A DNA stretch of 64,000 nucleotides, taken from NCBI RefSeq assembly GCF_008087625.1, contig NZ_CP042997.1, positions 6,944,001 through 7,008,000 of the forward strand. The letters are read 5' to 3'. A program made the position numbers and the translations under genes. The DNA is from Aquisphaera giovannonii. Lineage in GTDB: Bacteria; Planctomycetota; Planctomycetia; Isosphaerales; Isosphaeraceae. The notes below the pieces were generated by a model. The model ran no database searches. It saw only the letters and a list, made by a program, of their open reading frames with translations, and was not told where the DNA came from. Shown here piece by piece: positions 11,371-13,657 of this stretch. Numbering within the stretch: the stretch's first letter is position 1; each line of letters starts with the position of its first letter.

Positions 11371-12102
11371 TCAGGCCGGCCCGAGGCCCGGCACCACGCC
11401 TGGCGAGCGGTCGTGCAGGCGACGAATGAGGGCCGCGACGTCGTACCCGCGTAACGTCTCGACGACCTCGTCGGCCCCGGCCTCGCGGAGCGGGGCGGCG
11501 GGGTGGGTGCTGGTGATGGCGACGGCGTACATCCCGGCGGCCTTGGCCGCGCGGACGCCGACCGGGGCGTCCTCGAAGACGACGGCACGCGAGGGCTCCA
11601 CGCCGGCCCTGGAGGCGGCGACCAGGAAGACCTCGGGATCCGGCTTGCCGTGTTTGATGTCCTCCAGGGCCGCCATCGCCGCGAACCGCCCCTCCAGGCC
11701 GCAATCCCGGGCCGTCAGCTCCAGGTTGCCCCGGACGCCGCTCGACCCAATCGCCAGCTTAACGCCCGCCGCGGTGAGGCCGTCCAGCAGCTCCCGGACC
11801 CCGTCCATGAGCGCGATCTTCCCGGCCGCCAGCTCGCGGTAGCAGGCCTCCTTGCCGTCGGTGTGGGCGGCGATCACCGCGTCTTCCAGGGACTCGCCCA
11901 GGATCCGGCGGAGGAGACTCGGGTTCGTCATCCCGAAGGTCTCCAGGACGTACTCGCGCGTGATGGGGATGCCGGACCGTCGCCCGTGCTCGACCCACGC
12001 GTCCTGGTGGAGAGCGAGCGTGTCCACGAGGACGCCGTCGTGATCGAAGATCGCCAGCAGGGGCATGTTCTCGGAAGACAAGGCAGTTTCCTCTCGCGGC
12101 AT
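11371..12102 (-). CDS. HAD-family hydrolase, beta-phosphoglucomutase-like
   Basis: 243 residues with all four HAD motifs: AIFDHDGVLVDT (nucleophile Asp; His replaces the usual Leu between the acids), AIGSSG, the lysine of DIKHGKPDPEVFL, and VFEDAPVGVRAAKAAGM. The helical cap between motifs I and II has the size seen in beta-PGM and small sugar-phosphate phosphatases. Substrate cannot be inferred. The ATG at 12102 is used here; an internal ATG at 12066 (MPLLAIF) would put motif I closer to the N-terminus and is equally plausible. It lies 49 bases downstream of the peroxiredoxin-kinase gene on the same strand. The ~200 bases between its stop and punA hold nothing I can name. Confidence 0.88.
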   Translation of the reverse strand: MPREETALSSENMPLLAIFDHDGVLVDTLALHQDAWVEHGRRSGIPITREYVLETFGMTNPSLLRRILGESLEDAVIAAHTDGKEACYRELAAGKIALMDGVRELLDGLTAAGVKLAIGSSGVRGNLELTARDCGLEGRFAAMAALEDIKHGKPDPEVFLVAASRAGVEPSRAVVFEDAPVGVRAAKAAGMYAVAITSTHPAAPLREAGADEVVETLRGYDVAALIRRLHDRSPGVVPGLGPA

Positions 12103-12151: not shown

Positions 12152-13657
12152 TCAGACGGCCTCGGCGAGGGCGCTCATCTCGTCGGCGAGCCGCCTCATG
12201 GTCATCGTCCGCCGGTCGGGATCGCGCTCGAGCATCGAGGAAAGTACGGTCCGGAACGGCTCGGGCAGGTCGGCGGTCATAGCCCGGGGATCGATCGACC
12301 GGATCTGCTCAAGGATCTGGAGCAGGTGGGAAGCGGGGAACGCACTCCTCCCGGTGGCCAGCTCGAACAGGACAACGCCCAGCGCGAAGACGTCGCTGGC
12401 GAAGGTGGAGGGCTCGCCGCGCGTCTGCTCCGGGGCGAGGTAGCGCGCGGTCCCGAAGATGCCGCCCCCCGCGTCCGCCAGCCCCAGCACCGCCGTGTCG
12501 TTGTCCTCGATCGGCCCGGCCTGGCGGAGCCGCCGCGCCAGGCCGAAGTCGAGGATCTTCACGAGTCGGTCGTCGCTGATCATCACGTTCTCGGGCTTGA
12601 GGTCGCCGTGGACGATCCCCGTGTCGTGCGCCGCGGCCATCCCTGCGGCGAGCTGGCCGGTCAGCCCGACCAGCTCGTCCAGCGGCATGGGGCCGGTCCT
12701 GGGGAGGCTCGAGAGGGGGCGTCCCGGGACGTACTCCATCGCGATGATCGGCACGCCCGCGGTGTCGTCCACCGCGTAGATCGTGCAGACGTTGGGATGG
12801 TTGAGCGCCGCCGCGGTCCGCGCCTCCGCCAGCGCGGCGCTCGGCGTCACCGGGCAGTCCGGCTTGAAGACCTTCAGCGCCACCGGCCGGTCCAGCTGCA
12901 GGTCCCTCGCCCGATAGACCCTCGCGAAGGTGCCGGAGCCGATCTCGGTCTCGACCAGGTAATGCGAGAAGAAGTGCCCCGTCCTGAGCGACCCGAACGG
13001 GTCGATCAGGGACTGGTCCGGCATCCAGTCCTCGCGGCAGAGGCCGCCGGACTGGAGCGCCGAGAGGACCCGCAGCACTTCCTGGCTGCGCCTGCCGACG
13101 CTCAGTGAATGCACGACCTGATACTGGATCAGCCCGTCGGGGTCGATCAGGAATAGGCCACGCACGGCGACCTGCTGGCGGGTCTGGTAGACGTGATAGC
13201 GCGAGGAGACCCGGCCGTCCGGGTCGCTCGCCAGCGGGAAGTTCAGCCCGCCGAGCCCGCCCTTCGAAAACGGCGTGGCCATCCACCTCTCGTGCGAATC
13301 GACCGGATCGCAGCTGATCCCCAGGACCTCGCAGCCCTGCTTCTGGAACTCGTCATGCCTCTGGGAGATGCCGATCAGCTCGGTCGGGCAGATCAGGGAG
13401 AAGTCGCGGGGATAGAACATGAGCAGCAGCCAGCGCCCCCGGTAATCCTCCAGCCGGACCCGAGACCTCGAGGGATCCGGGAACCGGGTGCAGGCCAGGT
13501 CGAACGCCGGGGCGGGATTGCCGATGAACGTGGATTCCATCGAGGCGGCGGGTCCATACGTCGAGACCCTAGCTCCCGCAAGACGCCATGCGGGGATCGT
13601 CGGGATCTCTGCCGGGCCATACTGGTTGACATCGCTCGATTCTAGGCGAACCGACAA
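12152..13657 (-). CDS. Peroxiredoxin (2-Cys AhpC/TSA) fused to a Ser/Thr protein kinase
   Basis: 501 residues in two parts. Residues ~45-215 are a typical 2-Cys peroxiredoxin: YPRDFSLICPTELIGIS holds the peroxidatic Cys90 in the canonical C-P-T-E context, and GGLCREDWMP holds the resolving Cys207. Residues ~234-500 are a Hanks-type kinase: glycine loop IGSGTFARV, Lys262 in VALKVF, catalytic HGDLKPENV with Asp352 (HGD replaces HRD), DFG Asp370 and FGTARYLAPEQ. All catalytic residues appear present in both halves. The obvious inference is peroxide-linked control of kinase activity; the arrangement is seen, the regulation is not. No transmembrane segment is visible. The start may be the ATG at 13540 (MESTFIGNPAP), since the first 39 residues have no family resemblance. 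Confidence 0.9.
   Translation of the reverse strand: MSVRLESSDVNQYGPAEIPTIPAWRLAGARVSTYGPAASMESTFIGNPAPAFDLACTRFPDPSRSRVRLEDYRGRWLLLMFYPRDFSLICPTELIGISQRHDEFQKQGCEVLGISCDPVDSHERWMATPFSKGGLGGLNFPLASDPDGRVSSRYHVYQTRQQVAVRGLFLIDPDGLIQYQVVHSLSVGRRSQEVLRVLSALQSGGLCREDWMPDQSLIDPFGSLRTGHFFSHYLVETEIGSGTFARVYRARDLQLDRPVALKVFKPDCPVTPSAALAEARTAAALNHPNVCTIYAVDDTAGVPIIAMEYVPGRPLSSLPRTGPMPLDELVGLTGQLAAGMAAAHDTGIVHGDLKPENVMISDDRLVKILDFGLARRLRQAGPIEDNDTAVLGLADAGGGIFGTARYLAPEQTRGEPSTFASDVFALGVVLFELATGRSAFPASHLLQILEQIRSIDPRAMTADLPEPFRTVLSSMLERDPDRRTMTMRRLADEMSALAEAV

Follow-up and report, generated by a model that had tools for sequence, protein, structure and literature searches.

Peroxiredoxins (Prx) are thought to be the primary peroxide receptors that signal to eukaryotic kinases, and how they do so is a matter of debate, since the partners are separate proteins in transient contact. 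Precedent for a signal passing from a peroxiredoxin to a kinase comes from yeast, where the typical 2-Cys peroxiredoxin Tsa1 acts on the catalytic subunit of the Ser/Thr kinase PKA in response to H2O2 (PMC7392609). Bacterial Ser/Thr kinases (STKs) with a fused input domain are likewise known, and in its main text a survey of STKs from planctomycetes describes multidomain kinases with WD40, TPR and other accessory domains and mentions no peroxiredoxin or AhpC domain among them (PMC11032199). Here we describe a gene from a member of the same phylum, Aquisphaera giovannonii, in which the new element is a peroxiredoxin as the input domain. The gene lies in a stretch of 64,000 nucleotides (contig NZ_CP042997.1, positions 6,944,001 to 7,008,000; hereafter the window) and encodes a peroxiredoxin joined to a Hanks-type STK in one chain. 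Judged from its sequence, the fusion is a strong candidate for a switch that couples peroxide directly to phosphorylation. In the yeast system the two partners are separate proteins, the kinase is eukaryotic, and regulation acts via its activation-loop Cys243/Thr241 (PMC7392609). No published description of a peroxiredoxin-kinase fusion, with either Cys or selenocysteine (Sec), was found in open-access full texts (PMC). Given that sensor and kinase are fixed in one chain and that natural variants exist (Cys or Sec, one or two kinases), control of a kinase by a peroxiredoxin, whether by relay or by conformation, becomes testable on a single protein. For planctomycetes, which have many kinases but few known inputs to them, the fusion may also supply an identified signal.

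Positions 12152-13657 form an open frame on the minus strand, a strand that the original prediction left unstated; the plus-strand translation is interrupted by stops. Alignment of relatives identified the ATG at 13540, 39 residues after a TTG start, as the family-consistent start, and ATG numbering is used throughout (C51, C168, K223, D313, D331); the residues named in the original prediction (C90, C207, K262, D352, D370) are all correct when counted from the TTG. Pfam places AhpC-TSA (5.5e-36, residues 45-179) and then Pkinase (3.3e-43, residues 234-487; both in TTG numbering) on this frame, which bears out the claim that both domains share one polypeptide. Feature coordinates are collected in Table 1.

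The distribution of the fusion was determined at three levels. In the window's own family, a whole-protein search recovered full-length, single-copy, in-frame fusions in 17 of 45 genomes, with 50-100% identity over both domains. A class-level search, made with the peroxiredoxin plus junction as query, identified fusions in 42 of 398 sampled genomes and seven families (one of them, G156, split). Fusions were accepted at E below 1e-50; the next-ranked matches (E about 1e-43) were standalone peroxiredoxins. Three further fusions, in two additional families, were obtained from a phylum-wide sample. The domain order that the original prediction proposed to seek across Planctomycetota thus recurs in frame in dozens of genomes and nine families, and named carriers include Tautonia sociabilis and metagenome-assembled genomes (MAGs) of the Pirellulaceae. 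Six standalone peroxiredoxins in long open frames (G289, G147, G046, G208, G635, G495) were checked and are not fusions.

In order to compare residues and histories, 49 fusions were aligned, of which 42 are whole-genome loci unconditioned on any motif and seven were chosen by a sequence pattern that included CPTE or HGDLKP. In the peroxiredoxin-domain tree, one branch divides all 49 from 21 standalone peroxiredoxins (99/98). An independent tree of the kinase domain sets 47 fusions apart from 44 other kinases (Shimodaira-Hasegawa-like approximate likelihood ratio test 96, quick method), and the sub-clades of the two trees largely agree. From these separate trees and their agreeing sub-clades, it is most likely that the fusion arose once and that both domains have since been passed on jointly, with many losses or some transfers.

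Two carriers are irregular. Of the named carriers, only one falls outside Planctomycetota: a MAG with the label Candidatus Zixiibacteriota (L066), whose sequence is nested among planctomycetal ones and may reflect bin contamination or gene transfer. In G156 (L165) a break after residue 229 splits the fusion, and a kinase-like frame goes on out of frame, while close relatives are intact; sequencing error and recent pseudogene formation are the candidate readings.

The N-terminal part is a typical 2-Cys peroxiredoxin of the AhpC/Prx1 type by its motif, catalytic Arg, resolving Cys and fold. Its nearest solved relatives are human Prx2 and Prx1, and structure comparison gave a Z of about 27 to Prx3/Prx1, with a root-mean-square deviation of about 1.8 over 163 aligned residues (Prx3). 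It shares with human Prx1/Prx2 and Prx3 the fold, the P-x3-S-x2-C motif with its catalytic Arg, the GGLG loop (in most members) and a resolving Cys near the C-terminus. It differs from them in its resolving-Cys motif, GGLC in place of GEVC, and in having a kinase instead of the 1-cysPrx_C/YF tail. Across the 49 fusions, P-x3-(T/S)-x2-C and Arg are kept almost without change (Cys 49/49, two as TGA; Pro 48/49; Ser or Thr 49/49; Arg127 49/49). Together with C168 and K223 in 49/49 and D313 and D331 in 47/47, this answers the check put forward in the original prediction, in that both cysteine positions and the kinase residues are conserved, and the residues for redox chemistry are retained in every fusion, two of them being probable Sec forms. 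Position 48 of the triad is Ser in 48 of 49 fusions, whereas it is Thr in all 19 scorable standalone peroxiredoxins of the planctomycetal set.

The wording "complete 2-Cys peroxiredoxin" in the original prediction was slightly too strong: the catalytic residues are present, but the tail is short and the fusion protein has no Pfam match to 1-cysPrx_C (PF10417). Given that the standalone AhpC of the same genome likewise has no PF10417 match, the missing match does not exclude the fusion from the AhpC/Prx1 subfamily. That standalone AhpC-type protein, encoded beside a CMD-domain (AhpD-like) gene (L192, C1:8250624-8253190), also rules out that the fusion is the cell's only peroxiredoxin. The YF motif of eukaryotic "sensitive" peroxiredoxins was considered and rejected, since its candidate counterpart, FF at residues 190-191, falls in the kinase's pre-beta1 segment when aligned and is unconserved among fusions. 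The best peroxiredoxin-type NCBIfam match is PrxU (NF040737), far under its cut-off (133.7 vs 270 bits); PrxU and the selenocysteine peroxiredoxins are standalone, whereas here a Sec or Cys peroxiredoxin is joined to a kinase.

By its catalytic residues (Gly-loop, VAxK Lys, alphaC Glu, catalytic Asp and Asn, DFG) and fold, the C-terminal part is a Hanks-type Ser/Thr kinase. It shares a common fold and residues with mycobacterial PknA and PknB (VIA-align Z of 29.3 to Mycobacterium tuberculosis PknA and 28.9 to PknB; 33-34% identity) and differs from them in carrying HGD rather than HRD and an N-terminal peroxiredoxin sensor rather than C-terminal PASTA domains. The alphaC Glu (E239, 48/48 covered fusions) and the catalytic Asn (N318, 47/47) are invariant. 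The catalytic loop reads HGD in 47/47 fusions and HRD in 20/20 of the other best-hit kinases, whose retrieval involved no motif filter. The claim of a complete Hanks-type kinase therefore stands as to intact catalytic residues and needs one qualification, HGD instead of HRD: the Arg that precedes the catalytic Asp in RD-type kinases is absent from all 47. As for non-RD kinases in general, the missing Arg suggests control by means other than activation-loop phosphorylation. One relative (G423, L238:2965-5466) encodes an 833-aa chain composed of a peroxiredoxin, an HGD kinase like that of the window, and then an HRD kinase, an arrangement that would suit a built-in cascade.

Two fusions, in MAGs of one family (G333, L149; G309, L152), carry an in-frame TGA that coincides precisely with the peroxidatic codon (DFSLV-TGA-PTELT). 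In each genome SelB exceeds the curated cut-off (368 and 358 bits) and tRNA-Sec scores strongly (73-75 bits), and the two fusion proteins are very probably selenocysteine peroxiredoxin-kinases. SelB occurs in 5 of 10 fusion genomes tested, the window's own among them, so the machinery by itself is unspecific; yet both TGA genomes have it. A hairpin with a 5-nt loop lies about 17 nt past the TGA in both, and some Cys genes too have strong hairpins; a selenocysteine insertion sequence sought by folding energy alone proved unspecific, as it did not set the TGA forms apart from Cys relatives in this GC-rich DNA. For standalone bacterial peroxiredoxins, Sec at the peroxidatic position is already known (PMC1794560). 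Sec at that position argues that the peroxiredoxin part of these fusions serves peroxide chemistry, and the TGA together with Sec machinery, read from sequence, would imply selection for peroxide reactivity. In the A. giovannonii genome, SelB is found at G000:C1:9392011-9393900 and a strong tRNA-Sec at C1:8657727-8657821, though its fusion uses Cys. Two standalone planctomycetal peroxiredoxins, L235 (G580) and L236 (G512), read DFTFV-TGA-PTE and are probable selenocysteine peroxiredoxins.

At the junction, GGLC-x3-W is followed by only a short tail, which leads directly into the kinase. Standalone peroxiredoxins end roughly 130-150 residues past the peroxidatic Cys, several with a YF-like tail end, and the pre-beta1 segment of the fusion kinase begins where they end, about 25 residues past C168. 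AlphaFold models were built from 17- and 45-sequence alignments (the latter with a mean predicted local distance difference test score, pLDDT, of 82 and a predicted template modelling score, pTM, of 0.58) and have two well-formed domains, a disordered activation loop (335-359) and a linker with pLDDT of about 52-63, which is probably flexible. Ratios of nonsynonymous to synonymous substitution rates (dN/dS) in close pairs lie at 0.05-0.15 in each domain; at the junction, which holds the resolving Cys, they are 0-0.07 in four of five pairs and 0.47 in the fifth, which has few informative sites. Both domains and most of the junction are thus under purifying selection. The original prediction had noted the covalent fusion and the intact catalytic residues of both domains, which these data confirm along with their strong conservation.

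We propose that the fusion is a cytoplasmic peroxide-sensing Ser/Thr kinase in which a redox change of the peroxiredoxin alters the kinase; the coupling and its direction are what we infer, and the probability of this reading is put at roughly 0.55. The peroxiredoxin part would form the usual domain-swapped dimer and decamer ring. Peroxide would oxidise Cys51 to the sulfenate, and a disulfide of Cys51 with Cys168 of the partner subunit would then lock the locally unfolded state of the segment that bears the kinase. Because the kinase begins so soon after Cys168 and takes the place in which a peroxiredoxin tail normally packs on the active site, this step would reposition or free it and change its activity or access to substrates. 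Decamers of Ser-type peroxiredoxins remain assembled on oxidation (PMC8300647); the triad Ser would accordingly favour a positional switch within a ring that holds together over dissociation of the ring. The non-RD loop would fit control by the attached domain, and reset would occur by thioredoxin-type reduction. The broader version, a family of one-chain sensors in which a 2-Cys or Sec peroxiredoxin gates its attached non-RD kinase so that H2O2 leads to phosphorylation, with a second kinase added in one lineage, is given an even chance.

Several observations weigh against a peroxide-sensing kinase. The authors of PMC8300647 suggest that Ser-type peroxiredoxins suit detoxification and Thr-type ones signalling, which runs contrary to the present proposal. 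AlphaFold gives no defined inter-domain pose at the pTM noted above, so no predicted contact backs allostery. When flanks were compared, no conserved redox, phosphatase or regulator neighbour was found outside the lineage synteny of the window's own family. Finally, low dN/dS and invariant catalytic residues indicate that each part is important but do not show that either governs its partner.

Phosphorylation tunes eukaryotic Prx1, and control could run in reverse, with the kinase phosphorylating its own peroxiredoxin in cis or in trans and tuning its peroxidase or chaperone function. The protein would then be a self-regulated antioxidant enzyme and no sensor. Two intact catalytic sites in permanently joined domains are compatible with this. 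The Thr matching the "NTP" site of eukaryotic Prx1, which we take to be its phosphosite, reads ATP in many fusions but is unconserved (relatives have ATE, ESD and NLP), and the standalone AhpC and AhpD-like pair means that the fusion is not the cell's sole means of detoxification; reverse control is therefore considered unlikely. Slightly less likely still is a scaffold, in which the ring merely clusters ten kinase domains or holds unfolded clients and redox chemistry has no effect on the kinase. The decamer-stabilising triad Ser and the low-confidence linker would suit such an assembly, but it has no need to retain both catalytic cysteines and Arg in 49/49 fusions, nor Sec for Cys in two genomes.

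A thiol relay, in which the oxidised peroxiredoxin hands its oxidation to Cys252 of its own kinase, is improbable. This Cys, which follows the HPN motif in the alphaC-beta4 loop, is present in 44 of 48 fusions as against 1 of 20 same-family bacterial kinases found without a motif filter. It also occurs in 6 of 44 kinases of the wider set and so may be simply inherited, and four fusions are without it; as a relay target Cys252 is weak, and no cysteine of the kinase is clearly a target. That the gene is an artefact, whether of assembly, of a frameshift or of two genes read through by chance, has hardly any probability left: one of 42 relatives is split (G156), but in-frame, single-copy orthologs recur across the nine families, several on megabase contigs, under the selection described above, and the assembly join that would have undone the original prediction is ruled out.

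Table 1. Features of the peroxiredoxin-kinase locus in window coordinates, with residues numbered from the ATG start
Feature	Position	Strand	Remarks
Peroxiredoxin-kinase fusion gene	12152..13540	-	462 aa from ATG at 13540; 501 aa from TTG at 13657
Peroxiredoxin domain (AhpC/Prx1 type)	13049..13540	-	residues 1-164; Pfam AhpC-TSA; structural matches
Peroxidatic Cys51 (CPTE)	13388..13390	-	in-frame TGA at same codon in G333 and G309
Resolving Cys168 (GGLC-x3-W)	13037..13039	-	kept in 49/49 fusions
Resolving-Cys segment and short linker	12962..13048	-	residues 165-193, in the place of the C-terminal tail usual in Prx; modelled with low confidence
Hanks-type Ser/Thr kinase domain, PknB/PknA-like	12155..12961	-	residues 194-462; Pfam Pkinase
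beta3 Lys223 (VAxK)	12872..12874	-	49/49 fusions
Catalytic-loop Asp313 in HGD (non-RD)	12602..12604	-	47/47 fusions reaching that far
DFG Asp331	12548..12550	-	47/47; one DFG reads DY
HAD-family hydrolase	11371..12102	-	directly downstream, 49-bp gap; outside the fusion

The gene is flanked upstream by a DUF2239 gene and downstream by the HAD-family hydrolase, which is found beside the fusion in 10 of the 17 carriers within the window's own family and is a possible operon partner. An argument from operon logic was set aside more generally, as the flanks of loci outside that family are mutually unrelated and only the HAD hydrolase is common, within the family. In the A. giovannonii genome, about 160 places matched the query, nearly all of them within the kinase domain.
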